64,000 nucleotides of DNA, from positions 3,763,001 through 3,827,000 of the forward strand of contig NZ_CP118225.1 of the NCBI RefSeq assembly GCF_028768465.1, given 5' to 3'. The notes beneath the pieces are model-generated. The model saw only the letters and a list, made by a program, of their open reading frames with translations, did no database searches and was not told where the DNA came from. Below are positions 3,614 to 54,100 of the stretch, in pieces (within the stretch, counting starts at the first letter, position 1; the number at the start of each line of letters is the position of its first letter). This stretch comes from Rhodopirellula sp. P2. GTDB lineage: Bacteria > Planctomycetota > Planctomycetia > Pirellulales > Pirellulaceae. Made by a program: the position numbers and the translations under genes.

Positions 3614-4693
3614 TCAGAATGCCTCCAAGACTTCGTGGCCGTTGCGGGTGCCGAGGGCACGCCATGTCTCCAGGTCAATGCTTTCGGTGACAAAGCCAAC
3701 GCTGCCGTCACAGCGAGCGACATGGACACCGCCGGGATGGTTGCTTCGTGTTCCAAAAACGCCCCAGCCACAACTGCCCATGTCGGGGATCAAGCTTTGG
3801 GGTGGGTGATAGTGCGAGTAGCCGGTCCAGTATTCTCGACCGTTGATCCACCCCGCGCCGCGATGGCCAGCCCAGCCGCGGTGCAGTCCGCTGCCGCGAA
3901 CGTAGGCTTCCATCTCGTTCGGGTTTTCTGGCAGAAAGAATCCTGCGAATCCTGGCGTGGTGGGAGGCATCGAACGGCTGATGAAGGCACAGGTCACATT
4001 CATCATCACTCGCTTTCGCAGATGCGGTTCGGTGGGCTCGGCGGGATCTTGTTCCGACATGCCCAGCAAGTGTTCTGCGAAAGCCGCCGTGTTGCTCAAT
4101 CCGTCCAGGATCGATTCGAAACCGACTTTGGAGTTGATCCACAGGATGCCATCGGTGGTGGTGCGAGAGTCGTACAGCGTTCCGACTCCCGTGCCAAAGT
4201 TCATGCCGTAGTTGGTGGCGGAGTAAGCCTGAGTCGGGCCGCTTCCTGAGAGCGTGGTGACATAGTAGGTCCGATCATGATCTTCGCTGGGGCAGGTCAA
4301 CATCGGCATCGCTGTTTTCGCGGCGTCGTCATGGGGAGTGACGAGCTGGCCTGGGCAGCAACCAACATGCAACGGGCGGTCGAAGTGAATCATGTCGAGC
4401 ATGTTCCCTTGCTCGTAAAACGGAGCCATCTGGGCGAAGACTGAAAAGTTGCCGGATGTTCCGGAGCCGGTCGTGTAGTTGGACGGGAGCTTTCGGTGTG
4501 CGCTTTCGTAGTTGTGCATCGCCAGCGTGATCTGTTTCAGGTTGTTGCTGCACTGCATGCGTCGGGCGGCCTCGCGAGCGGCTTGGACCGCGGGAAGCAG
4601 CAGCCCCACCAGGACGCCGATGATCGCGATCACCACCAGCAGTTCCACCAAGGTGAAGCCGCGTTGCGGGGCATTGGGTCGAGAGAGTTTCAT
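3614..4693 (-). CDS. DUF1559 prepilin-like protein
   Basis: This 359-residue protein opens with a type IV prepilin-type N-terminus: a short basic leader, then G12-F-T-L-V-E17 and a hydrophobic helix ending in '[15 protein letters not shown]'. A prepilin peptidase would cut after G12, leaving Phe as the N-terminus and Glu at position 5. The remainder, beginning '[21 protein letters not shown]', is the DUF1559 domain, greatly expanded in planctomycetes, whose function is unknown but which is thought to be pseudopilin-like. The C-terminal '[20 protein letters not shown]' region is the usual DUF1559 end. It is the first gene of a minus-strand run (DUF1559, propeller, haem protein, DUF4198), with a 1-base gap to the next start. 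No strong ribosome-binding site precedes the ATG, as is common in this phylum. Confidence 0.95.
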
Positions 4694-5110
4694 GGGAATT
4701 GAAATGGTTTGTTGTGCGGTTGAGTCGTTGTTGGGTGGATGGTTCGGTGGGTGCCTGCAGGTTCAGCCTGCTGAGTGCGCGCACCTTCTCCGTGGAAGCG
4801 AACCCAGCCCTTTTCAAGCTCAGCTCGTTCGACAAATGAGTTGCGTTCGAAAGTCCATTCGAATCGGTGCAATCCGACGTTGGGTCAACCATCCTCGGCA
4901 ATGCGAGGACGCTCCCGCGTCAGCGACGAAGACCACACTGGTGTGAGGAGCGAGCCTTCAACCACCAACGCGGCAGCGGTGATTTCTGCGTCCGCACCTT
5001 CACTCGATGAGCAACGATGCCGTGAGCGCAGCAACAAACCGGATTGCAATGCGTGAAGAGATCGCGCGCGGACATCCCTACGGGATTCACGAGCGAGCGA
5101 GGGACGCTGG
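4694..5110. other. Intergenic region upstream of the DUF1559 operon
   Basis: This 417-base stretch separates the cysteine-rich gene from the DUF1559 operon, both on the minus strand, and so should hold the operon's promoter. I found no convincing -35/-10 pair, tRNA or short gene. The right end (about 5080-5105) has a GAGCGAGCGAGGGAC string that partly matches, in reverse, a string near 20485-20510, perhaps a trace of a dispersed repeat. Confidence 0.4.
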
Positions 5111-5836
5111 CTAAGGAACCGGCGGCTCGGGGCAGAGGCTCATTGCGTCCGCGTGATCGTCTTGAAGACTCAAGCGAAACAGCAAAGGCGGAGGAGAGAC
5201 CTTCCATTCGAACGCTTGGAAATCAACGACGACGCTGGAGAACAGGCTCCAGACCATCTCGATGCCATGACATTTCGCGGCGTCTTGCAGGCGAACCCAG
5301 CGGACGGGTTCGGAGGTCGAGGGGGAGGCCGGTTCGTCACCGCAAGCATCGCCACAGCAGGATGCTGTTTCGGTTTTTGCCAGCGAGCCAGTGGACGCCT
5401 CGGCGGATCGCCCAGTCACGGAGTGGCACGTCAAGGAACGCTGGCGCATCTTGGCCGCGAATCCGGGGGGCGGACCAGGTGAATCGGGGCCACAGCAGCT
5501 GCCGGATGCGCAGGTTGACGGCGTTTCTTGCGAAGTTCCGTCAGCGATCTCGCCGAGTGAAAGGTCAACTCGAGCGACCAGGAACGCCGGCGGGGTGACG
5601 TTGTTTTCGGCTGCCCATTGCAGTTTTTCGAAGTCACTGTGGCAGCAGCACTTGTCCCAGCAGTAATCGGCGGAGGAGCAGCCGCAAGGGCAGGCTTCGC
5701 AGGGGAACCGGCCAACTTTCTCGGGCCGAGGAGCGGTGAGGGGCAGTCCGATCATGCCACACCCAAGCACCAACAACAGCGTCACACAGACGCCGCGTCG
5801 TAGCAGGGAAGATCGGAACTGTCGAAAGAAAAACAA
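5111..5836 (-). CDS. Cysteine-rich exported protein of unknown function
   Basis: This 241-residue protein starts with a basic region and a hydrophobic stretch (residues ~15-35), a signal peptide or membrane anchor that includes a cysteine near residue 26 (LVLGC-G), so a lipoprotein is possible. A dense cysteine cluster follows at about residues 45-66 (C-E-A-C-P-C-G-C, then C-W-D-K-C-C-C-H), a composition that suggests metal binding or disulfide bonding. A second cysteine group lies near residues 105-115 and a third near 155-165. The C-terminus is rich in proline and acidic residues. I do not recognise a named family. The gene stands alone between the repeat cluster and the DUF1559 operon, on the same strand as both neighbouring operons. 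It could be a copper or zinc buffer, but that is only a guess from composition. Confidence 0.75.
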   Translation of the reverse strand: MFFFRQFRSSLLRRGVCVTLLLVLGCGMIGLPLTAPRPEKVGRFPCEACPCGCSSADYCWDKCCCHSDFEKLQWAAENNVTPPAFLVARVDLSLGEIADGTSQETPSTCASGSCCGPDSPGPPPGFAAKMRQRSLTCHSVTGRSAEASTGSLAKTETASCCGDACGDEPASPSTSEPVRWVRLQDAAKCHGIEMVWSLFSSVVVDFQAFEWKVSPPPLLFRLSLQDDHADAMSLCPEPPVP

Positions 5837-35866: not shown

Positions 35867-36174
35867 GTCAAGATCGCTTTCGTTTTGAGCGAGCGGCGAA
35901 CGTTCGCGGTCACGAAGGCGTTCGTTGGAGGTGAATCAGGTTGTCGTAAGGTCTTCTCATAGCAGGCTTTGGCATCGCAGTGAAAGGTCGATGTCAATTT
36001 GACTCAAATTGGCGTGAAACGCGCGAAACTGGGTGGAAACCGACTGGCGCTGCCACTAAATCTAGTCTTGTTGAGAATCGCTGAGAAAGAGCGGTTTTGA
36101 TTCAAGCCAATGGATTGGCTTGATCGTCCCCCGTGCATTGCTCGGGGCAAACCGAATGGATTTGGAGAGCAGCA
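35867..36174. promoter_or_regulatory. Divergent control region of barrel protein and giant gene
   Basis: This region should hold promoters for both divergent genes. A purine-rich GGAGAG at 36164-36169 precedes the TTG start of the giant gene. An alternative GTG start for that gene lies at 36133. I see no tRNA, hairpin or convincing -35/-10 pair. Confidence 0.45.
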
Positions 36175-39100
36175 TTGAATATCGAACACCTTCTGAAACA
36201 ACTCCGTCAACGATCCAGCCGAGCTTCCAAGATGGGGGCCGGCAGCAATGAACGCAGCATCCGTTCGCGACGCGCCCTGAACCGACGCCGCCGGGCTCGC
36301 TTGGAATCCTTGGAAGACCGCCGATTGCTTGCCGGTGATGTTGCACTGTCTGGAAACACGTTGGTTGTGACGGGAGATGACGCTGAATCCAACCAATATC
36401 AGATTCAGGTAATCGATTCAGCGGGGACCGATTCGTTTCAAATCACGAGCAATTTTGATGTCAGTGAATCCGATGCTGGGCTGACCGATACAAGTGGCGA
36501 CATGAAGGAAGTTGTCGTGGAGGTTGGTTCCATCTCAGGGGTGGAAGTTCGTGGTGGAACGCAAAACAACCAGTTCACCGTGGGAAATCTTTCGGGGCAT
36601 CCGATCCAACTCTTTGGCGAGGCCGGATCGGATGGTTATGTCTTGCAAGATCACTTTGGAACCGTCGCGGTGAATGACACCGGTGGTGCCATTGATTTGA
36701 CTCAGTTGACATCGTCGTGGACGACCAGCCTGTCAGGCAACACAGCGACGATCGGTGCCGATGGAGGTGCAAGCACCGCGACAGTCACCAATGCCGATGC
36801 CTATGTGTTGACACCGAACTCGCTGACGCTCTCCAACACGACCGCGGTGATCATCGACGGTTTGCAGGAGCTCGCGAGTCTCGGTGATGAACTGGTCACG
36901 CAGGATCGTTTGGCTGAAAACCAGGTCGTGTTGGATGATCAATCGGTTGGCAGTTTCTTGCCGATCGGTTACATCCTCCGCGCGAAGGTTTTGGATCCAG
37001 TTGCAGGATATTTTTCGACCGGTTCTCCCGAAGTCAACATCTTGGGATTGTTGCATTATCTGGAGTCATTGTCCGGAACCAGTTCGCTTGACGACGCATC
37101 GCTGTCATGGGACATCGAAGCCCATGCAGTGAATACAGCTGAAGGGGCGACATTGGAATTGGAGATGAACGCGACTCTCACTCACTCGGATGTATCGCTT
37201 GCGCTTCCAGACTCTTTGTTGAGCTTGGATGGGGCGTTGGACAAGAACCTGGGTGCGTCGAAGCTAACAGGCGACCTGACAACGGGCTTCACATGGGATC
37301 TGACGATTGGTTGGGATCGATCGCCTGCCGCGTATTTCTTCGTTGACTTCAGCGATGACATTCACGTCTACGCAACCGTTCACGACACCAACGCTGAATT
37401 CGAACTCAACGCCGGTTTATTGGGGTTGGATGTTGGACAGCATGGGCCCGCATCCGCATCGAGCTCATTGCAGTTTGACTTTGACGCAGTGGTTCATGTG
37501 AGCGATCTGTCGTCGTTGGACGGGAGGAACGGAGGGGCCAGCGATGGAGTCATTCGGACGTTGGAATTGCAAAGTTCCGACCGAATGGACTTGCTAACAG
37601 ATGATGTGAATCCATCGGCTCAATTGGACGTCAGTTTGTATGCCGTCGCGACGGGGATCAACGGAATCTCCGAGGCCGAAGCGGTCCACATTCAGTGGAG
37701 TGACGATCTTTCCAGCGAAGCCGATCCCATCTTGTCGGAAGATTTGACGACTTCGGAGTTTGAGCCGTTCTTCCAATCCGATGCGACCACTCTGCTGCAG
37801 ATGGCCGAGCAGTTTTCGGTTTTTCTGGATACGCTTGCGGCAAAAACACTCGACTCGAACGTCGTGCCGCTGACCGAGAGTCTCACGGTGGCGGACTTGG
37901 TCGATGTGTCAGGCGTCTACGAGAATTTGGTTGTTGAACCCACCCGACTTCCGCAGCACACATCGGCGACTTCGATTTTAGCGGTCAACGGTGGGGACCC
38001 GCTCGGAACGAGTGGGGACGGCGATTCCGACCTCGTTTTGCAACTTCGAAATGGCGACACGTATCCCATCGATTTGGACTTTGGGAATCCGACGACGCTG
38101 GGGGCGGTGGTTCAGTTAATCGTTCATGCCGTCAACGATTCAAGCAAGTTGGTCGTGGTTCAAGATCCGAAGCGAGGACTGACGCTTGCCGACCTCACGT
38201 CAGGAGATAACAAGTTTGAGTTCTCTGCTGAAACGGATTCCGAGGGTGAAGACTACGCGGTGGTCGGGAACCTCGGTTTGGACGCGGCTGCGGTCGAGCG
38301 AGACGTCACCGGGGACGCGAGCGATGAGTGGGTGATCGACGTTGCACCGGTCAACGGTCCCGCTTTTACATCGATTCAATCGTTTGCGAAACTTGCGAAT
38401 GATCTGACGGCGGGCGTTGTGACTGGACTCGCGTACGATGCGGATGCGAGCGGTGGCCCGACGCTTTCTTTTGAAGTCGTGATCGATCAATCGATTGCAG
38501 ATCAAAATGGAAACGCCATGTCGTTGATCGACCTGGGAAAACTGAAACAGATCGATCTGTCAACGGGAACGATTGACGTCTCGAATGCTCGAGTCCAAAT
38601 GCAGTTCCCATTTGATTTGCTTTTGACGGAAGTCGGAAGCGACGTGGAACGGACAACTCCGTTGGCGGAACTCAATGGCGGAAGAGGCGTGTCGGTCAGC
38701 CAGGATATCGATGGTTTTCTTGCCGATTTGGACATTCGTGTGGGCGACGGCACAACATTTTCTGTCGACTTGGATCTGGGACTTGGGATTCGTTCCCTTT
38801 CCGACTTTGGGATCGTTGACGGCAGCGGGAGCGACCTGAGTGTCGTCCTGAACGATGGCAGCCGTTTTGAAGTGGATCTGGCTGAAACGGTGAATTCCAC
38901 CGGGAATGTTGCGGGGACATTGGCGGAGTTGTTCGAACTGATCAACGCATCGGCATTGGACGCTGGCGTGACGAGCGAGCAGTTCACAGCAACGATTGAT
39001 GCTGCTCGGTCAAGCCTGCGATTGCTGGATAAGACAACCGGCGCATCGTCCTTTGCAGTGAGTGGGCGGGTCGCAGATGCTTTGGTCTTCGGAACATCCG

Positions 39101-42100
39101 TTTCGATCGAAGTGGACGGCAAGGATGCCATGCTGTTTGAAAAAACGGTGGGGACACTCGGTGACTTGGTGAGCAGGATCACCGACGCGGCTGAGACCGC
39201 GGGACTGACACTGCCCGATCCCGACAACGCCGGCGCCAGTTGGAAATTCGACGTTCGATTGGTCGGCACTGGAATTGAAATCGTGGATCAAACCACGATC
39301 GGAAGTGAGATCACGGGAAACGCCGAAACGAACTCGACCGAAGATCAGCTTCACGCGACAGGCATGTTCACCGGTCAAACGCTGTCGTTCCGAACAGTCA
39401 CGATCACGGGTGGGGCGGGCGAAGGGCAAACACGCACGATCCAGTCCAACACCAATGATGCGCTGACACTGACCGAAAAATGGGACGTCCAGCCGGATGC
39501 GACGTCGATCTTTCAAGTCAACAATGGGTTGTTCGTCAACGCGGCGAATCGATCGGCCGCGGCGTTTGGCCTTGGTCTGACCAATGACCAACGCGTTGAT
39601 GGTTCCGAGCGGACGGTCGGTGGGGCTCCGCTGCATGGGGATACGCCCAGCCGACGATTGCAGTTGAGCCAAACGTCAGAACCGCACATCCAAGTTTCGA
39701 TGGAACTTGACGAAGGCACGCAGGGTGTGGGCACGGGAATCTACGGCCCATTGGAAGTGGTTGTGTCTGGGGCAACCGTCGATTCGGCGGCGTTCCAAAC
39801 CGAACTCACTCTTCGTGAGAAGACGCTGGACCGTTTGAACGCAGGATTGGAAGATCCGTTCACAATGCTGCTCAAGGATGGCGAAGTCTTGTCGTCGTCT
39901 GCGTTTGATTTGTCGTTGCAGGTTGGGGCCGATCCCAGCGTCGTGATTGATGGTGCGACAGGGAACACTCCGTTTGATGTGACCGTCGGGAACATTTTCG
40001 ACGTCCAGTCGGGCGACGAAGTGTTGACTCCGACGATGAGCAGTGACGACGGTGTTCGTGCTCTGCTGGAATCGTTGGCGTCCGTCACCATGGAAGACTT
40101 TCTGAGCACTCTTGATTCGGTGAGTGAGTATCTCTTCGAGTTGCAAACGCAGTCGAAACTCGGGAAGTCCCTGCCTGGTCTTCCAGAGTCCGTCGGTTCG
40201 ATGTTGGGTTTTGGTGAGAACTTCGAAAAGCGATTGGAAGAGGTTCGTGATTTGCCCATCTCAACGTTGCAGCAACTGCACGCGGCACTGAATGACACCT
40301 CTCAGAAGACAATGAACGGGCTGGCCGGAACGTTGGCGACTTCCTTGAGTTTTGAAAAGGCAACGTCGCAGCTGCTGTTTGATTTGCATTACTTGCTCGC
40401 TGAAATCACTCCCTCGCTCCCGTTGACTCTCAACCTCACTTCGTTGGGTGACGATCTGAATGCGGCTGGCGATGATCTGCAGTCTTTGGGGCTCCGGCAG
40501 GTCGCTGCCATCGTTGATTCATCCGGAACCAGCCTGTTGGATGTGGTCGCAGATGGTGAGTTGCATGTGGTGGTCGGCATGGATTTGACCGATTCGGACG
40601 ACCCTGCAACGGTGTTGGTTTCGGATCCCGATGCTGATGAGGGAACTCGAGCCGAGTTCCATGTCAAAGCGTCATCGGCCGAGTCCATGAACTTCCCCGC
40701 CGTGCTCGGAAGCATGGCGGTCGGAGTCATTGGTGGTCAATTTGCGTTGAATCTGGACGGTGTTGTGGGCACGTCTGATTCCGCGACCTATGAAGTGAAG
40801 TTGCAAAGCGATGTCGACGCAGCGACGGCGTTGGATGGTGCCGCTCTGCCAAACACCACGACAATTGGTGTCTCGGGAGAAGCAACAGCGAGTTTCGAAC
40901 TCGTGCTTCCGGAATCTGTGATCCCGCAAGACGCTCCTACTCATTTGACTCCCAACATCACGGTCGAGGTCACCAATCTAAACGACATCGCTGCTGCCAA
41001 TCCGAGCCGAAGTTCGACCCTGACGACGAACATGTCCGGGAATCCAGGCGAATGGCCGACCTTTGAAACGCTGACTCAGAACTTTTCGCTGACCGATTCG
41101 ATGGAAGGGTTCAAGCTTGGTGTCCAGCGGTTGTTCCGCGGATTGGACGACGTGTTTGAGACGGCGTTGTTAGGGCAAGACTTGCCGCTGGTGGGCAAGC
41201 AATTGGCGGATGCAGCGAACTTCCTTGACCAAATCGGTGAGTCGGTTTACGCGAACCTTGATTTGCTTCCGACCTCGGGAATCACGATGGACTCCGTCCA
41301 CGTGGCGCTCTTTGATGCGTTTGGACCGGGCGGGTTTGGATGGCTGCAAGACAGTGCCCTGCCCTCCAATCCGGACACGTTCGTCAACATCGACGATGTG
41401 GCGGTGACTCGGGAAACCATTGTGACCGCCAGTGGGCGTGAATTGGTGACCGGTGTCGAGTATCGAATGGATTTGGAAATGACTCCGGAGAGTCTGCCGT
41501 TCCCGATCGATTTGGATTTGTTGTTGCCTGGTTTGGGGCTGACGACCGAAGCCCTCGCGGATGTGAAGTTTGGTTTCAAAATGCCGCTGATCGTCGGCGT
41601 GAGTGTTCTGGATGGTGTCTACCTCGACGTCGCCTCTGACAACGAGGTGGAAATCAGTCTGGACATATCCTTGCCCAGTCACGTGGCGAGTTTGTCCGGT
41701 GAACCCTCGCTGTCATTCTTCAACACCGATTCGACCCAGCCCAAAATTTCGAGGGACCAAGGCAGTTGGATCATTGATGGATTCAAGGTCGGTCAAATCA
41801 TCGAAGTCGAAGGCACCGCCAACGCCGCTGACAACGACGGCAGGTTCGTGATCACAGCGATCAATGCGTTGGGCACTGAACTGACGCTCGCGGCCACGGA
41901 TGAGGCCCTGAATGCTTCCGACATGACATCGGATCGTGTTGTCCCAGAAGGCCCCACGACGGGGATTCAGGTGCAGGTGTCGACGGTCTCCATGACCGGG
42001 CCGAACACGGTGGATTTCAGTGCAACTCAACACACCATCTCGCGTGGTGCGGGCAGTTGGTTGGAGGATGGCTTTCGTGTCGGTGACACGATCCGCGTCG

Positions 42101-45100
42101 ACAATGCAGGTGTGAACAATGGATCGTGGATCATTTCGGCGATGGATGCTGTTGGTCGGACCATGTCTTTGGAAGGCGGCCCGGTTTCCAATGTGAGTGG
42201 TGCGGCCAGTGTTCGGATCCGCTCCAGTCAGCGACATGGTTTTGATGCCCAAATGGGTGTGCTCCCCTATCGGATCTGGGATGCGACCCCCGACCAGTCG
42301 GAGTTCACCGGCACGTTTGTTTTCGATTTGCATGATCCCAACGAGATTGCGAGCCAGCAACGTTTGTCAGTCAACGACTTGGATTCGGAGCCATCGTTCC
42401 CCATCGCTCCTCGAAACGGATTCACAACGGCTCCGTTGTCGGGACTTCTCACGCTGACGGAGGGCACTGGCGTTGGGCAAGAGATCGTTCTCAACGACAT
42501 TTCGCTTCAGTTGGAAACCAATTTGCCACGCACGGCGGCATTCCCACCCTTCCGAGCTCAACTGGATGTGACCCATTGGGATTGGGGACTGACCGATTCG
42601 CTGTTGACCAAAGGAACTCCCGACGAGATTGCCTTCAACGACGTTCAGTTTGAATTGGTTGGCTTCGTGCGAGATTTTCTCGGTCCCTCTTTGACGCGTT
42701 TTCGGGCCGCATTGGAGCCCATGGACGGAGTCATCGATTTCCTGACGAGTGAAGCGATGCCGATTTTGTCTGCCTTGTTCGGCAGCACATCCTATGCGTC
42801 GGCGCCTGGCGTGTTTGGTGGTCGAAGTGAGGCGGGCGATTTCGCAGGTGCCGCTGATGTGATTCGAAAGTTGGTCGATGGCGGCACACCGTCACACACG
42901 GGATTCACAAAATACTTGGACCGGATCGGTCTCGCTGATTCAAAGAGAACACTGACAGCGATCAGTGAATTGACGGGCCAGCATTGGATCGACATGGGGC
43001 GTTTTGAAGTGGTCGTCGCGGAGGCGATGAACCGGAACGCCACCGTCGAGACCATTTACGACGAGTCCAACAACGCAGAGCGATTGAAAGGTGACTTCGG
43101 AGACGCTCCGTTTCGATTGAGCGGAAGCCCCGAGATCGCCTTCTCCATGAGTGAAAACTCGATCGAGCGTCGAAACCTTGTGTTGACTGGTCAGACTGTT
43201 AGTTGGGGGTACTCTGCGGTCACTGGATCAACACTGACTAGCAGCGTGCCTTGGTCGACCTATGGTGTAGAAGAAGGATTCACTCTCACGATCCAAAATC
43301 TGACCGGGGCCAATGCCGTCTTCAACGGCAGTTACACGGTAGGGCTTGTCTCCGGGACGACGGTTCAGATTTCGCGAGATGGATTCAATCTGGTCGGGAC
43401 ATCGATCTCCGTTCCACGATTGGTGATCAACGCGTCGACGTGGATCCGTGATGGATTTCAAGCTGGACAAACCATTCGAATCGATGGTGGCACCAACGTT
43501 GGAACGTACACTGTTTCTTCAGTTTCCGAGACTGAGTTGACCGTGAGTTCGTCGTTCGTGGCGGAAGAGACGGTCCCATCGTCAGCAAACCCCAATGTTC
43601 GTGTGCAGAACGCGGTGGGAGACTACTCAGGAACCATCAAGGGCCAGATCAACGCGGTCCTCAACGATCCGCTTGCGTCTGCTCAGCAGGCTGCGGCCAG
43701 CTTCCTGATGACGCAGACGTTACCAGGTCGCGGAATTGGATACGGTTTTGACTTGCTAGGCGGCGTGACTCGAGAGATCTTCTCCCCAATCGATAGTACT
43801 TTGAAGGGATTTGACCCGATCGAGCTGCCCATCTTGAGTGAAGCGTTTGGGTTGTTGATCGGTGACACAACGTTCGGTGATAAGTCGGCGGCGGAGAGTC
43901 ATCTTCTGAACTACAGCACGCCTGAACTGCAGTTCACGCTCTATCAAGATTTCCCGCTGGACAAGAAAACGTTCTTCTGTGAAGTGCCGTTTGGTTCTGC
44001 GTTTGCCAGTTCCGGAATCTGTGACGTTGTGAGCAGCGGATCTCCCACCCCGTTTGTGTCGGTCTCGTTTGAAGCACGCATGGACTACGGCGTTGCGTTT
44101 GATACGACGGGCCTGGAACTTTATCGGGATTCAGGAAACCCGGATGCGATCATCGAAGGTTTCTACTTCGACGACACCGACGGTGTGGATCTGAATCCGG
44201 CTCTCATTGGTGGCAATGAAAGCGGGCCTGTTGGGACCAGTTATGGACTGACCGATGTTCCGCAATCACGGATCCTTGGCGGGATTGGCGTGGGCGTCTT
44301 CCGTAAATTTGGAACCGGACTCGGGAATCTCAAAGTCGGTGTGGAGTTGTCATTTCATACCGGACAAGATCTCAATTTTCATGACCCCAATGGGGATGGA
44401 CGAATCCGAGCCAGCGAATTCGATGTCTTGACCGAATCCGCCGTGGATGAAAACGGTCTGCTGACATTTGCGAATTCTGAGAATGCGTTTGACAAGAGCA
44501 TTCGAATCGAAGTCCGCGGGGACGCCTTCATAAAAATCAAGGCTTTGTTCGTGACGATCATCAATGTTCGTGTGAACATCTTCACGATTGGATTCAACAT
44601 CCCACTGGAGAGTAAATCGTTTGCGTCGCCTAATTTGGCGACCCTGTCGGGTGGAACCTTGCGGCTGCATGTGGGCGAATCCGATGCGGCGACGCGTGGG
44701 TATCGAACTGGCAATGTGAACGAAGCAATTTATGTCGGTTACAACCCCTGGACCAATGAGATTGTCGTCTCTGGATTTGGTTCGCAATCCGAACGATTCC
44801 ATGCGTCCAGCGTCTCTCTGATTGAAGCCTCCGCTGGCACGGGAAATGACCTGCTTTTCGTTCGTCCCGAAGTGACTCGTCAGGTGTCCTTCGATGGTGG
44901 AGAAGGCGACGATGTGATGTTCGGCGGCAGTGGTCCGGATGAGCTGGTCGGTGGATTGGGAAATGATTCCATCGATGGACGTCTCGGCGATGATTCGATC
45001 TGGGGTGATCTGAAAGTTGGCGTCACTGGAGGTTTGGATTGGTTGTTTGGTGGTGACGGAAGAGACACGATCTATGGCGGTCCCGGGATCGATGTCATTC

Positions 45101-48100
45101 GTGGCTGGCGTGACGACGATGATTTGCATGGCGGCGATGGCGATGACTTGATCGATGGCGGACAGGGCAATGACACACTGCACGGCGACGATGGAATCGA
45201 TTTTCTATTGGGGAACATCGGACACGACATCATTGTCGGCGGTGCCAAAGATGACCGACTGGAAGGCGGCCCCGGAAGAGATGCCCTGTATGGTGAGGCT
45301 GGGGAAGACGTCTTGTTCGGTGGGCTGGGCAATGACGCCTTGGACGGTGGAGCGGGTGACGATTCGCTGTACGGCCAGCATCACAATGACTCGCTGCAAG
45401 GTGGTTCTGAAGACGACTTGTTGGACGGTGGCCAAGGCAGTGACCAAGTCTTCGGCGGCGACGGCGACGATCTCGTCTACTCACGCGATGGAAACGACCA
45501 TCTCGATGGGCAGGAAGGCGATGACACCTTCAAGGTCTATTTCGCTCGTGGGAAAGTGAACTCGCTGCTTTCGATTTTGGACACAGGCACGTCGGGAGTG
45601 GACGTGTTTGATGCCAATGGAACCATTGATTCGGATCAATTTTTGTTGCGGGCGAGTGTCAGCGGGACGAACGCGTTTGTGGCCGTTCTGACGGATCCCG
45701 ATCATTCGTCGGATGAACCCGGGTACAACCCCTCGGTCCAGCGAGTCAACTATCTAGGTGTCGAACGGATCCTTGTTCAGGGCGGAATGGGCGACGATCA
45801 ATTCGCAGTCGATGACACGGCGGCGGAAGTCACGATCGACGGTGGCGATGGTGACGATGCATTTCAAGTCGGGCAATTGTTTCGTTCGCAACGCACCGAA
45901 GTGGATGCCAACGTTTCGGTGGATGACGTGTTTGCGACGATCGAGACCACGCGTGGGTTCCTGTCCAACGGAATCAGCCAACCGATGACGATCAGTGGTG
46001 GGTTAGGTAACGATCACTTTGTCGTGTTCCACAATTTGGCTGTTCTGACCCTGAATGGAAACGAGGGCGATGACGGCTTTGAAGTCCGCGCATTCGCGTT
46101 GGTAGGATCACGGGAACCGGAACGTGCCCGAACGGACATCACCGGCGGTGCGGGAGCCGACTTGGTTCAGTATGCCGTCAACGCTCCAGTCAACATCGAC
46201 GGCGGCGATGGTTTTGACACCCTGACGGTCATCGGGACCGAATTCGGGGACGACTTTGTGATCACCGAAGACGGTGTTTACGGTGCGGGATTGACGATTG
46301 ACTTCACCAACATTGAATCGTTGCGAGTCGATGCGGCGGAAGGCAACGACCGCTTCTACGTCAAAAGCACCAGCGAAAAGTTTCTGACGGAATTGTTTGG
46401 TGGTCTGGGTGATGACACCTTCAACCTGTCCGGCGACACACCCCCGGTCGTCAGCAACGATCTGAAGGGGCACAGCGGCATTGTCACCAACAACATGGCG
46501 TACAGCAGTGACCTTCGTTACGAGGACCTGAAACTTCACGGCGTTTCATCCAACGTCGCAGACAACGAAGAACCCTTTGTGGTCATTCGAACGTCGGATG
46601 GATCCACGATTGTGGGCGAAACGGGTTCCGTGGATGCAAGCGTGGTGGACTTCTATGAGGTGGTGCTGACTCAGGCTCCGATGAGCGGTTTTGATGTCGT
46701 GGTCCAGGCTCTCGCCCCGCTTCCAAGTACCTCGCGGCGTGAACTGGGGGCCTTGGCATTCCGCCTCAGCAGTGTTGCGCCAGGTTCCACCAAGAAGGCG
46801 GACGGATCGGCTGTCACGCTGACGTTCACGTCTGAGAACTGGTTCATCCCGCAACGCGTGGACATTCTCGCGGATGATGAAGCTCAATTGGATACCGGGC
46901 GATTGTTCACTCGCGATGAGTTGTCTGAGTCGGACACGTTCTCTTATGACGACGCTGCCTACGAAGGCAAGCAGTCGGCGGTCATCAATCACATCGTGTC
47001 GTCCACCGCGACAACGATCGTGGGGACTCCGCTTGCTCTCAGCGATTCCCCAACCATTACGATCGAGACCAATCTGCCGTTTTATGAATTTGTTGGGGAA
47101 ACCATCACGGTCACATCGTCGGATGCTTTGACCACGCAGACACGTCGGATCACCGATGCTCGATTGGTTGGCGGAAAGATGCAATTGACTGTCGACCGGT
47201 CTTGGTTGGCCGGATCGTATTTGCCGGACTCATCCAGCCTGTATGCGATTGTTTTGTCTGACTCAACTGAAACGGGGCATCCGACCGAGGTACGCAACAC
47301 CACCTTCACGGTGAATGATCCCAGCGATCCGACGAACCCATTCATCGAACAGCCCAGAGACTTCCTGGGGCGCCAGATCACGATCATCGATGGGGCAGGT
47401 GTGGGACAGAGTCGATTCATCACTGGTGCCGACCAAGTCGTCACGTTTGCGTCCAGTGCGGTTGAGATTGATCGACTGAATCCGAAAACGTTTGCTTTGC
47501 AATTGACCACCGGTGGGGAATCGGTGACACCGACCACCGGTGGTGTGCTGAACCTGCGCTTCGTTGCTGATTTGGATTATTTCACCGAGACCATCGAAGT
47601 GACGTTGGATGGATCGCCATTGGAGGTCTTGTTCGACGACTATTCCGGTCGCCAATACAGTTTCGTTCAAGCCTCGATTCCTCTCTCTCAGTCGCAGTTG
47701 CAATCGGCACTCACAGACGGCCGTTTGGAACTCGGTCTGAATCCGTCGGACGCCGTCAACAACCTGGACGCTTACTATGATTTCAAGTCCAGAGTTTCAT
47801 TCGATTTGCAGTTCCACATCGATGTTTCGAATGCCAGTTTGGTGGCTGGCATGGGCGGTGATGTCCAATTCACATTGGACCGTGGATGGAGTCTGACGGA
47901 TCCGCCGGCATTGGAGAGTCGCTACCAAATCCGCATCGATGATTCATTGGTCGGACGGGTCTCTGGCTTCGATGAGTCGCCGGTTGGATTGCCGACTGAT
48001 TCAGCCTTCCCTGCGGAGTTGGACACGCGAACAACGTTCGCTGACAGCGATGCCGATTTCACGTCGGCCGATTTTGGTGCAGAAGGACTCCGCGGAGCGA

Positions 48101-51100
48101 CACTGCAAATCGTGGGCGGTCCGGGCGCAGGCCAACGTCGATTGATCTTGGATGCGATCGACTCAAACACATTGATTTTGAATGGCGATTGGCGGACGGA
48201 TCCCGTTGCGGGAGAGAGCGTGTATCGAATCGCTCGTTTTGACGGTTTGGCCGTTTCCAGTGTCAGCGTCGAAATCAACGACAACGACGAAGCCGGCATC
48301 GTCGTTGATGAAACGCATGGCTTGGATCTCTCCGAATCCGCAATTGGCATTCTGGGTGAGAACACGGTGACCGCCGTGATCGAAGGCGGTGACGGCGACC
48401 AACTTGGCGAGCGTGACGTGCTGCGTTTGAAGTTGACTCGTGAACCCACCGCCCATGTGACGATGCGGTTGGTCTACGACGACGTTCAACTGAGTTTGCA
48501 GACCACCGACGGCAATCCGATCCCTTCCAATGCCTTGACTTTCACGCCCGGCAATTGGAATGATGTTCAGGAAGTGATGATCGTCGGTTTGGTGGACCAG
48601 ATTCGCGAAGGATTCCATGTCAGCCAGATCAAGTTGGAACTGGATTCCGGGGACGTGGATCAAGAGTTGGTGAAAGTGGACCAATTCGATATCCCCGACA
48701 CCGCAGCGGTGGAATGGGTTGGTTTGAGCGAACGTCCAACGCGAATCACCAGCGTTCAGTACAAGGGGCAAACACTCCAGTCGAAGGACGACGACAATCC
48801 ACAGGGAACGGCGTCGAAACCGGTCTACGCGGTTGTGAGCAACAAAATTGTCTTCTTCGCTGGAGACGAAGTCACCAAGGTTTCAGGCAGTGACCTGACA
48901 ATCACTTATGCCTATGTGAATCCGGGATTTGACGCGGCCTTCACCCACCCCGTCTTGGTGCGAATCAGCGATGCTGACGCGCCCACCGTTCTGGTGCGAG
49001 AAACCGGCGGTTCGACGGATGTGGTGGAGGGAGCCGTGACTTTCATGGTGCTTGAGCTGGATGGGGTTGAAATCCCAACCAGTGACGTGGTGGGCGAAAC
49101 GGTCACTGTGAGTGACGGAACGGGCGTGGGACAAACCGCCACGATCGTCGCCAACGAAGGCAATCAGATCACCTTGGACACGATCTGGGCGATCGTTCCA
49201 GACGAAACGAGCGAATTGACGTTGGTCGTGTCCGGAAATTCCGAGCAGCGAATGGTCCTCGGCAATGAAGCGCTCACCTGGGGTGAGGACCGTTATGAGT
49301 TGGTGCTGACATCACCGCCGGTGGATGATGTTGCCGCTGGTCGTCGCGTCGTGGAAGTCGTGGTCACTCCGGAGGACACCAAGACGAGTCGCACCGGCGG
49401 AGTCGTGACGAAGGCTCGTCAAGTCCAGATTTACAACCTGGATGGGTTGGATATTACTCGAGTCCGAGTGGATCCTGATGACGCCAACAACCTGATTGTC
49501 ATGTTCGATGAAACGAACTGGGACGTGCCGGTCCGGATTGGCGTCCGAGTCATCGACGATTTGAAGGTCGACGGTGGCGACACCAAAGTGTTCGCTCCAG
49601 GACCGAACACGCTCAGCGGAATCCTGGGCCCTGTGGTCGTCAACGGTGCTGGTGGTGACGGATCGTTGGCTGGTTTGGGCAACCCGGAAATCTTGCCTCA
49701 AGAAACCAACGTGAAGGCGGAAACTGGCGAAGTCGAATCGATCATCGGCAACACGGTGACATTCAAGACTTTAACCAGTGAAGCGTTGTTCTCTGTCGGT
49801 TTGGAATCGAACTTGAGCAACGTTCAAACGCTGATCGGCAAAACGTTTGAAGTCGTCGCCACCAACCCAACCGCAGATTGGTTGCAGGTCTTCCCATCGG
49901 CAACCGTCGGGAGTCCTCGCGATCCAGTGGTTGGACAATTCCGTCTGATCACCGATGCGATGGTGCAGGATGACCAAGTTGTGGTGACGCTCAACGAGCG
50001 ATTTGGTGTCGGCGGCGCGTTGACCTCAGTGGATGCGACCGTTGTCACATCCAGCGTGGACCTGCGACTGTCTCGGCAAGAGCAATTGCAGCTTGGGATT
50101 GGGAGTGTGGGCGATCTGCACGGACGGACCATCGAATTGAGCGATGCGGATGGTCAGGCTCTTTCCTCCGCTGTGATCACTTCGGCCGTGGCTGATTCGG
50201 ATGGATTGATCACGATCGAAGTGCAGTCGGATTGGACATCGATCGCAGCGGATGCCAAGTCGTTCTTCCTTCAGTCAGACGATCTGATCCAAAAGTTTGC
50301 GATCACTTCAGAGAGTTTGAATTTCTTTGTCAATGAGCAGACTTCCGTTGACTACATGTTCGTGCACGACGAAGACAGTCCCGCGGACAGCACCGGGTAT
50401 TTGACGGCGGAGCGATTGTGGGGACTCAACATGGGGCCCGACGTCACCGTGGGCGGACGCCTGCAACCCGGCGGGGTTCAGTACGGGAATCTCGAGGTGC
50501 TGCAGATCGACTTGGGACGCGGCAACAATGACTTTTACGTGTCGGGCACGCACAAACGCGCCGATGATCCGACGACCGCAGAGGATGAAACGTTCCAGAC
50601 CTGGACCATCATCAACGGTGGGGACGATGTCTACTGGCCGGACCATGGCCTCGAAGACGATTGGTCCTGTAGCGGTGGAAATGTCGACCACGTGCCGGGA
50701 ACTGGCCGCGAAGGCGATCGGTTCTGTATCGATGTGAATGCAGAGAGCGTCACCGACGTGGTGACGGGATCGGTCTCTTCGGCCAGCAATGCAGTGGAGA
50801 CGGCGCTTGCCAGTTTGGTGGATGCTTCAGCCCCGTTTGGCGTGGACGATGGGCTGGTCGGAATGGAATTGACGATGACCAGCGGAGCTGGAAAAGACCA
50901 CTCCTACACCATCATTCGAAACACGGAAGACACCATCTATCTGCGAGGAGACTGGATTGATCTTCCTAGCGCGGGAGACACTTACACGATCACGGATCTG
51001 GCCGACGGTCCGATCGCGATCAACGCTCAAGGTGGTCACGACCGTGTTGATGCGTCGGCTTCGACGCTTGGCGTCGTGGCGTTTGGTGGGCTGGGGCGTG

Positions 51101-54100
51101 ACACCTTGATTGGCGGTTTAGGAGACGACATTTTGTTCGGTGACCGCGGGCGGGTGGACTATTCCACGGCAGCGGATGGGGATGGCCAATCCACCATCGT
51201 GACTCGTTTGGGGCACGCACCCCAGCCAATTTCAGGTCATGCAACTGGTGGGTTTGATGAGGCGGGAAATCTTGTCGATGTGAATGCGACGTTCCCCGTG
51301 GCTGATGGATTCGACATTGGGCTGGTTGGATTGATGGTGGATATCAACAACGGCACCGGGTTCTTGCAGACACCACGATTGATCACTGCAAACGACGAAA
51401 ACACTCTGTCAATCTCGCCGGACTTCACCGAGACGTTGGATGCGACCAGTGAGTACCGAATCTCGACTTACCCAGAAGATCAGACCGATGGGATTGTTCG
51501 CGGGCCAACCCGACTGATCACGGTCGATGACTTGGAAGGCGACGTCGACACCATCAACGGTGGGGCGGGGGCGGACCAGATCTTTGGCGGTGCCGGAGAT
51601 GACGACGTCTTTGGGGAAGCCGGCGACGATGTCATTTTGGGCGACACGGGGGTGATTGAACGAACTCCCCTCGCTGCCAATGCGACGGGGACGGTGATTG
51701 CCAGTGCGATTGATTTGGTTCAGACCAAATCACCCGATGCTGGTGGCAAAGATTTGATCTCGGGCGGCGATGACAACGACATCATTTTTGGTGGCTTCGA
51801 AACGGACTACATCAACTATGATCGATCCAAAGTCGCTGGTATGGGTGAATCTGGCAACGACATCATCGTTGGCGACGGTGGTCTGGCCGATTTTGATGTT
51901 GCCTCCGGTTCTGCAATTCTGATCGAGGTCTCCACCAAAGAGCCAACGTTCGGCAGCGATGACTGGATCACCGCGGGTGCCGGTGAGAAGATCTTGTTTG
52001 GTGGTGCAGGCAACGATCAGTTGCTCGCCGGCAGTGACAACCTGCCGGATATCATCATCGGCGACGAAGGAACAGCGACGTTCGATGCCCTCACGGGGCT
52101 TCGAGTTCGCATCGCGACGAAGACCTCTGACATCGGCGGGGACGATACGATCACCGCCGGCGACGCACTGAATATCTTGTTGGGAGGGAGCGGTGCCGAC
52201 TCGATCACAGGTGGTGATTCGCAGGACGTGATCTTTGGCGACAACGGAGAGATTCTGTTCGATGCCAGCGGGATTCGCGAGCGTTTGATCACAACGGACC
52301 CCACCTTTGGCGGAGTGGATACCATCCAGGGGCAAGGTGGCAATGACATCGTGATTGGCGGTGCCGACGGCGATGTGATTCACGGTGGTTCAGAACACGA
52401 CGTGATCTTGGGTGACCACGGTGAAGTCGACTTCACACGCCCCGCTGATCGCAACGTGATCAGCCGCTTCATCGAACTGGCCGATGGTGGTGGGAATGAC
52501 ACGATTGATGGTGACGATGGTGACGACTTCATCTGGGGCGGACAGTCCGGTGATGTCATTCGCGGTGGCGCCGGACAGGATGATCTCGTCGGCGGTCACA
52601 ACGTTCCCTTCGGAAGCGACGGCAACGACACCATCGAAGGTGGCGACGGCGAAGACGCATTGCTCGGCGACAATGGCATCATCACTCGGGAGTTGATCGG
52701 AACCGAACTTGGTACCTGGACAACTTACTTGGCTCCCTTTGATCACGTTGTCGTGCGTGAGTTGCAGCCGTTTGACGATCTGGATCTGGTTGGCGGCAAC
52801 GACGATCTGTCAGGCGACGCCGGAATCGATGTGATTCTTGGGCAACGTGGCAATGACGTGATTCAGGGCGGAGCAGGCGATGACGAATTGATTGGTGGTT
52901 TGGGTGGTGACAACATCGATGGTGATGGTGGGCACGACTTCATTCTGGCGGATGCCGGACAGATTTTGCGAGATGTCGATGAGGATGGCAAACCGCAACT
53001 GAACTCTGACCTTGTTTGGCATCGTGACATCGTGACCGAGCGAATTGCTCGGGTGGTCGACATCATTCCGCTCGGGCCAACCGGTCTGATCAACGCGCCG
53101 GCCGATTTGATCGACCGGTTGTTGGATGCTGATCAATTTGTCTTGGCCAGCATGCACCTGCCGTCGGGCCAATTGCACACGAATTCGGACGGGATCAGCC
53201 AGACGGTCGCGTTGCTGCTGGATCTCGTCGATGCGGACGATGACATGGTGGACGGCGGCGATGGCAATGACATCGTTCTCGGGCAACGTGGCGATGACAA
53301 TCTTCGTGGTGGGATCGGCGACGACCTGTTGATCGGTGATCACGGTATCAATGTCGCTCCCTACGAAACCGACCTGCCCCAAATGATCGACGCCACGCGT
53401 TTGATCGCAGCGGTGCCCGGCTACGATTCGCTATCAGGGATCGAGTTGGACTTGCCAGGGTTGGGGCATTTGATGGTTCCTGATTTTGTGGCGGAACCCG
53501 GTGCTTTGGTGGCGGAACGTCCTCGCTGGGACCGTGTGACGGACATCAACGCTGTGCTTTCCAATCTGGCAAACGACGATCGCATTTCGACCACGGACAA
53601 TTTGCGTTTGTCCGCGTCTGTGATGATCACACCTGATTTCCTCGGTCACACTGATGTGCTGAGTGGAAACGACACCATTAACGGGGACGATGTCGCGGGT
53701 CTAGGCAATGGCGACGATTGGATAGTGGGCGACCAATGGATCGTCAACAGCGACCTGCAGTCCGGAATCGCACCGGTTGATGAAGCCATCGAACGCGTCC
53801 GAGCAACCATCGCGGGCATCATGCATGCCCTGGAGTCAGCCTCCTTGGATCGTGGTGTGGTTCAACATTCGATCAACGCTCAGCCGGTGGTTGAACGTGA
53901 TATCTCCATTGCGAGCGATTCGCTGCATGGTGGCGACGGTGCTGACACCATCATTGGTGACAATGTGGTGGTGGAACTGCCTTCGACGCAAACCATTCCT
54001 GGTTCCGGAACGGTTGCCGAGAACGCGGCGGAGTTGTTGCGGCGACTGGATGTTTACCGGACCCTTTCGGACGATGCGATTCAATTGGTCTCTCGCGGGC

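Follow-up and report, generated by a model that had tools for sequence, protein, structure and literature searches.

A recurrent glycine-rich module of a giant planctomycete protein as a probable distant homologue of a phage hub domain

What is the glycine-rich unit that recurs along a giant protein of Rhodopirellula sp. P2, and is it confined to proteins of this kind? Planctomycete giant proteins are poorly annotated; the one considered here comprises 6707 residues and is encoded by an open reading frame at 36133–56256 (+ strand, GTG start as listed) of a 64,000-nucleotide stretch of contig NZ_CP118225.1 (assembly GCF_028768465.1, positions 3,763,001 to 3,827,000), referred to here as the window, to which all nucleotide coordinates apply. 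An initial annotation of the window described an uncatalogued Gly-x-Gly-x-Gly-Gln module repeated about eight times in this protein and possibly peculiar to planctomycete giants; it proposed a profile search, a fold prediction, and a structure search, and named a cadherin- or flagellin-like match as the result that would speak against a new module. We arrive at the view, to which we assign a probability of roughly 55%, that this unit (module A) is a small barrel that is mobile and exposed, is distantly related to a phage hub domain, and acts as a spacer and probable glycan-contact module.

The repeat is real. A profile free of window sequences (43 rows, of which viral contigs supplied 39 and one Bacteroidales, one Phycisphaerales, and one archaeal contig the other four) picks out six copies, which score between 16.8 and 40.4 bits, versus 5.4 bits for the best of 201 controls (200 block-shuffled and one reversed version of the giant protein). 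These copies, all on the + strand, are A1 (39325–39528; residues 1065–1132; 40.4 bits), A3, for which the profile detects the N-terminal half (47296–47481; residues 3722–3783; 16.8 bits over residues 3740–3781), A4 (48022–48243; residues 3964–4037, match 3972–4038; 25.7 bits), A5 (49039–49233; residues 4303–4367, match 4299–4368; 28.5 bits), A7 (50800–51000; residues 4890–4956, match 4889–4958; 17.0 bits), and A8 (51259–51471; residues 5043–5113, match 5061–5115; 16.9 bits). They correspond to the units placed initially, with borders that were about right, near 39370, 47361, 48085, 49087, 50854, and 51319. The two further units in that earlier count fare less well. The one near 47086, copy A2 (47029–47265, + strand; residues 3633–3711), is divergent and weakly supported, since its 3.5 bits fall inside the range of the controls, since it reaches 2.2 bits with profile A5 (run without shuffle controls), and since its orthologues mostly score low with profile A5 (11.7 bits in giant G011 and 4.8, 2.3, 1.4, and 0.6 bits in the other four). 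The one near 49831 (49780–50052, + strand; residues ≈4550–4640) is matched by no profile used and was dropped as unsupported. A possible divergent copy at 50074–50268 (+ strand; residues 4648–4712) scores 7.1 bits versus 10.8 for the best shuffle and so is not above controls. The giant carries about seven copies of module A. That these represent no domain at all, their likeness being one of chance or composition among Gly-rich β-turns, is very improbable: the RTX repeats of this giant do contain similar G-x-G-x patterns, but the window-free profile parts six copies from 201 controls, the structural models described below are confident, and a phage protein is found both with and without the module-holding stretch.

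Module A spans ≈65 to 75 residues with the consensus TLxD....F.......G....I..GTG.GQ.R.I..N....LT....W.T.PD.TS.Y.I. In an alignment of 91 copies, 48 of them from giants (many close orthologues) and 43 from elsewhere, the central motif retains its three Gly in 85 of 89, 89 of 89, and 69 of 89 copies and its Gln in 81 of 91, and the C-terminal motif retains Trp (67/86), Pro (69/86), Asp (54/86), Ser (71/87), and Tyr (68/87), which bears out the earlier description of a Trp followed by Pro-Asp-x-x-Ser at the end of most copies. Cys is absent from the window copies. The module also appears to be uncatalogued, as first proposed: whole-protein scans with Pfam, NCBIfam, and PHROGs (E ≤ 1) place no family on the module A copies, and scans of single window copies yield only weak matches, the best being PF09356 in Pfam (E 0.0095; 16.7 bits, below the cut-off of 22.9 bits) and an E of 0.045 in PHROGs. 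Neither a cadherin nor a flagellin model hits the copies, no family reaches the Pfam or NCBIfam cut-off on them, and a known repeat of either kind was therefore rejected. The strings GAGQTRTI, GTGAGQTR, and SGTGAGQ were not found in the literature available for search, in which work on planctomycete giants (e.g., PMC5177795) likewise yielded nothing on module A.

Module A is predicted to fold as a five-stranded small β-barrel, with “barrel” resting on the strand order and the structural neighbors. The AlphaFold2 (AF2) model of window copy A4 (alignment A6, 48 rows) has a predicted local distance difference test score (pLDDT) of 83.1 and a predicted template-modeling score (pTM) of 0.70, with strands at 6–10, 29–35, 42–50, 53–57, and 70–75 and GxGxGQ between the second and third; that of a phage copy (alignment A7, 29 rows) also has five strands (pLDDT 90.7, pTM 0.77). 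In these models, Gly-x-Gly-x-Gly-Gln would form the β2–β3 turn, and W...PDxxSxY would run into the last strand. A Foldseek search of the Protein Data Bank (PDB) returned 816 rows for the window copy, the first being the gene transfer agent (GTA) hub 6tba_7A, and 163 rows for the phage copy, and places phage barrels among rows that are individually insignificant (best E 0.37 and 1.3, respectively). Phage or GTA tail structures account for 12 of the best 50 among the 163 chains returned with the phage copy (the P560, KP34p57, and LKA1 depolymerases, the phi297 tailspike, the JBD30 baseplate, the Chi hub, the GTA hub, the Mystique tail tube, the lambda tail tip, and the K1F/NF endosialidases). 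Against the predicted viral proteins of BFVD, the top rows are Caudovirales-type proteins at a probability of 1.00 and TMq up to 0.68, with a best E of 2.7e-3 and none reaching 0.001; a DUF2163 protein is found there at a probability of 0.98.

Profile comparisons offer tentative links to hub proteins. An hhalign comparison of module A with 11 hub C-termini gives a score of 23.7 and a probability of 27%, versus 12.6 for the best of 100 column-permuted controls. PF09356, the family that covers these C-termini, matches two of the phage proteins below its cut-off (L091, E 2.3e-4; L089, E 6.1e-4), and in L089 the match (128–176) lies apart from the copy found by the module profile (236–303). One planctomycete sequence (G113:C33:28076-28204; L204, L077) is matched both by PF09356, at 25.7 bits and above cut-off, and by module profile A4, at 27.3 bits, and may thus be seen as a bridge between the two. 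We consider module A a probable distant homologue of the PF09356 hub domain rather than a member of that family.

A number of results weigh against this assignment and against the function that we attach to it. Across alignments, the hhalign probability to the hub family ranges from 12 to 49% only; every window copy misses the PF09356 cut-off of 22.9 bits, and PF09356 finds no match over the Rhodopirellula genome itself (E ≤ 1). The PF09356 match on that one window copy is weak, since accidental matches of single copies to AAA_19 (E 0.015) and DUF6799 (E 0.023) score almost as well. Four profiles run against PDB sequences returned either no match or chance-like ones (glycerol kinase, copper chaperone, S11), and tblastn of a window copy in phages gave one record at E 5 and none better. 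No single PDB match by Foldseek is significant; the count of 12 phage or GTA chains among the best 50 is a raw one, uncorrected for a base rate of phage chains; the GTA hub stands at rank 21 for the phage copy (E 4.4, TMq 0.59); and many other rows are KOW proteins (uL24, SPT5), F1-ATPase, and pyruvate kinase barrels. The models have five strands versus the six described for the insertion barrel of phage tailspikes. Finally, the conserved Gly, Gln, Trp, Pro, and Tyr could be structural, and glycan binding is suggested by analogy with the phage barrels. The uL24 and SPT5 rows, a weak sequence match to uL24m (E 0.59), and the lack of a significant PDB match are in keeping with an unrelated SH3/KOW-type barrel, one that would resemble the barrels of phage hubs and depolymerases through convergence toward a simple fold; we think this unlikely, as it leaves aside the sequence links to PF09356 and phrog_778 and an hhalign score above permuted controls, and no KOW family appears in Pfam scans of the copies.

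The module is not peculiar to planctomycete giants. Relatives are encoded in 87 of 128 pattern-matched stretches of viral contigs, of which 80 were kept (these contigs are IMG/VR predictions; the central motif pattern is found in 37 viral-contig stretches), and a scan of genome contigs with one query confirmed three of 156 stretches, from Bacteroidales, Phycisphaerales, and Candidatus Methanoperedens. The relatives in viral contigs, in the Bacteroidales metagenome-assembled genome, and in the archaeon led us to reject a planctomycete-only distribution. We sampled Planctomycetota with profile A4, which matches 18 of 294 genomes at E ≤ 1e-4 (that of Rhodopirellula included), and the phyla of the Bacteroidales genome and of the archaeon with profile A5, which matches two of 148 genomes in each, counting in either phylum the genome that had served as entry point; both profiles contain window copies, and these frequencies are not strictly comparable. 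Among named phages, the module is rare: one query returned a single record, Pseudanabaena phage Pam2, to which a query with L091 also led, and another returned two jumbo-phage records. A single plasmid, of Methylocapsa, carries the module in a GH28-related protein. The fetched loci together hold 281 module matches in 171 of 7004 frames, many of them redundant.

The proteins that carry these relatives are of several kinds. In ten module-bearing phage frames, tail and virion families are recurrent: L130 matches the phrog_376 tail protein (E 6.6e-128) and is homologous to the solved tail nozzle 8ck1 (E 4e-44), L081 and L158 have tail-protein families at their N-termini, L158 with a pectate lyase in addition, L106 matches a virion structural family, and L091 matches phrog_778, “tail assembly protein” (E 5.2e-8), over its first module; of the remaining five frames, three have matches confined to families of unknown function, and the other two lack any PHROGs match. 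Nineteen bacterial frames were scanned, many of them truncated where a fetched locus ends. Seven have β-helix or pectate-lyase matches, above cut-off in L056 (which also has malectin), L060, L062, and L066 and below it in L049, L054, and L055; β-helix-like stretches flank the module on either side in L056 and L049, the first in L056 being the only one of the four above the Pfam cut-off. Others have Ig-like (L052, L119, and L061), PAD-middle (L053), cadherin (L118), or subthreshold T2SSK (L058 and L072) matches, and the scans of L067 and L070 gave no family match. L059 is FlgK, with FlgK_D1 at 96–319, the module at 351–420, and the C-terminal rod domain at 613–652; L057 is flagellin-like, with the module at 496–561 between N- and C-terminal flagellin matches at 2–73 and 718–796 (E ≈ 4e-4, below cut-off). 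In both, the module stands between the terminal domains and outside the Pfam-matched ones. We also note a planctomycete frame, L065, in which the module (residues 494–559) occurs alongside matches to HZS-alpha (hydrazine synthase alpha middle domain) and cytochrome c.

In one phage protein, the module is a discrete unit, as a natural pair with and without it reveals. Tail tubular protein B of the Methylophilales podophage MEP301 (L206; MW452941; 660 residues), aligned on both flanks with four nozzles of the L130 type, lacks the 77-residue stretch that holds the module in these nozzles. By eye, the sequence surrounding this site looks barrel-like. Across these hosts, module A looks like a widespread surface module and no speciality of giants, and on our preferred reading it would be a mobile accessory unit that has been inserted repeatedly in surface proteins that are secreted and in tail, enzyme-like, and flagellar proteins.

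Within the giants, the array is old and conserved in position. A profile of five window copies (profile A2) finds the giant frame as its sole match over the Rhodopirellula genome (E ≤ 0.1) and, at E ≤ 1e-3, matches 11 of 60 genomes, this one included, eight of the others carrying it in frames 5.3 to 9.1 thousand residues long. We compared the orthologous giants (those of G023 and G036 are partial) in a tree of 51 rows, 48 module A copies and three module B copies (see below), over 67 columns; the tree, which has eight open forks and some long branches, groups copies by position and not by genome, with support of 99/97 for A4 (eight rows), 100/99 for A8 (eight rows), 97/84 for A7 (six rows), and 97/94 for A5 (six rows). 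The array is therefore older than the split of these genera.

What the initial annotation overlooked is that the copy near 47361 is interrupted by ≈135 residues (47449–47853, + strand; residues ≈3773–3907, borders approximate), beyond which the C-terminal half of copy A3 (47842–47943, + strand; residues 3904–3937) aligns with the unbroken copy of G018; this half alone scores 4.4 bits versus 4.8 for the best shuffle and so is not above controls. In G018, copy A3 is continuous (residues 3777–3839), and seven of the eight aligned giants, that of the window included, have 124 to 135 residues more than G018 between common anchors. In six giants, the extra piece separates the GxGxGQ..R.I strand from the LTLDRGW strand, and in G036, where the border differs, it comes after the Trp; G023 was missed by the anchor search and has an unbroken, weak A3 match (8.5 bits). 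The model of copy A4 suggests, by analogy, that the extra residues sit in the β3–β4 turn; the whole-protein Pfam scan (E ≤ 1) gives no match on them.

This tolerance of a ≈135-residue insertion by one copy, the retention of positions across orthologues, the turn- or core-like character of the most conserved residues, and the location of the modules among other β-rich stretches and RTX repeats would suit barrels that bind nothing and are rigid beads setting domain distances in a long fiber. Such a purely structural spacer is a credible alternative, albeit one that we hold at less than even odds: the relatives in FlgK, flagellin-like, β-helix-like, and phage tail proteins suggest contact roles, and the related solved barrels are described as oligosaccharide-binding or as part of an active cleft. 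On the reading that we favor, a mobile barrel that both spaces and contacts, each copy would be a self-contained barrel of the same structural kind as the “oligosaccharide-binding” barrel of the hubs and the insertion barrels of tailspikes; in the giant, the copies are old units that have kept their positions amid other β-rich segments and RTX regions, and their most likely role is to protrude as spacers and to make contact with a neighboring protein or with glycans, be these extracellular or on the cell surface. Display and ligand binding are in this respect assigned to module A by analogy.

The remainder of the giant has few recognized domains. The Pfam scan (E ≤ 1) finds a planctomycete export motif (PF07595, residues 51–70), calcium-binding repeats of the RTX type (PF00353), and, toward the C-terminus, a PKD domain, which alone are above the Pfam cut-off in all 6707 residues; NCBIfam yields RTX-type matches only, below cut-off, and PHROGs a match at residues 2439–2476, off the module A copies. 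The giant is probably secreted and probably binds calcium. A stretch like LNIEHLLKQLRQRS, upstream of the export motif (36133–36230), is common to G004, G009, and G011, and the true start of the giant is uncertain for this reason.

A second repeat, module B, is present in four copies (41719–41943, 42007–42225, 43201–43425, and 43390–43608; residues 1863–2492) with the pattern SWxxDGFxxGxxIxVxGxxNNGxYxIxxV. These score 30 to 70 bits with a profile of other genomes, versus at most 2.7 bits for shuffles, and the last of them matches phrog_1236, “head protein” (E 2.7e-8). Modules A and B align by hhalign with a score of 16.9 and a probability of 6%, surpassed by one of 100 permuted controls, and profile A5 gives 13.3, 13.3, and 11.6 bits on module B copies in three giants. 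None of 23 viral-contig stretches was confirmed to encode module B relatives.

A tentative extension of these findings is that one uncatalogued family of mobile barrels has moved repeatedly, as a glycan-contact unit, between phage tails and cell-surface proteins (giants, flagellin, FlgK, β-helix lyases, and archaeal proteins), some giants being partly made of tail-type barrels, module A and perhaps module B. A module common to phage nozzles, flagellar proteins, and secreted giants would provide a clear case of domain traffic between phage and cell surface. A named recurrent module offers a handle on the giants and links them to structurally characterized phage tail proteins, and a 70-residue unit can be expressed and tested for binding.

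Among known systems, the KOW/SH3-like barrels (uL24 and SPT5) resemble module A in being small barrels that appear, insignificantly, in the Foldseek rows, but they have no Pfam match on the copies; these barrels are intracellular nucleic-acid binders. The phrog_778 family, which matches L091 as described above, matches five of 19 module sequences weakly (best E 0.06) and one window copy at no better than E 0.11. Closer is PF09356 (Phage_BR0599), the C-terminal part of DUF2163 hubs, with solved members in RcGTA (6TBA), Chi (8VJH), JBD30 (8RK3), and R4C (8GTC). The likeness consists in a tentative in-register profile alignment over a GxxVxI...RxI...LxL core, in the Foldseek rows 6tba_7A and 8vjh_D, and in the G113:C33 sequence matched by both profiles; the differences are that the conserved Cys of the hub C-termini is absent from the window copies, that the giant has no DUF2163 match (Pfam, E ≤ 1), and that GxGxGQ and W..PDxxSxY are features of module A.

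The third comparison is with the insertion barrel of tailspikes (LKA1 gp49 residues 283–370, 4RU4; KP34gp57, 8BKE), likewise a small barrel put into another domain, which the phage copy meets in Foldseek rows 4ru4, 8bke, and 4ru5 (TMq to 4ru4 0.54, E 3.9). Unlike this helix-interrupting barrel, the giant has no Pfam match to a β-helix (E ≤ 1), and the tailspike barrel is described as lining the catalytic cleft. The GTA report names hub residues 168–249 oligosaccharide-binding because they resemble the insertion domain of LKA1 gp49, a domain that it states was shown to bind sugars (PMC7296036); the LKA1 report is more careful, describing a six-stranded barrel that interrupts the β-helix and may join in substrate binding, its role being unclear (PMC5701251). 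In the KP34gp57 report, a similar barrel helps to build the catalytic cavity, and changes in the barrel lower activity (PMC10653864). The relatives L049 and L056, with the module between β-helix-like stretches, resemble this tailspike arrangement.

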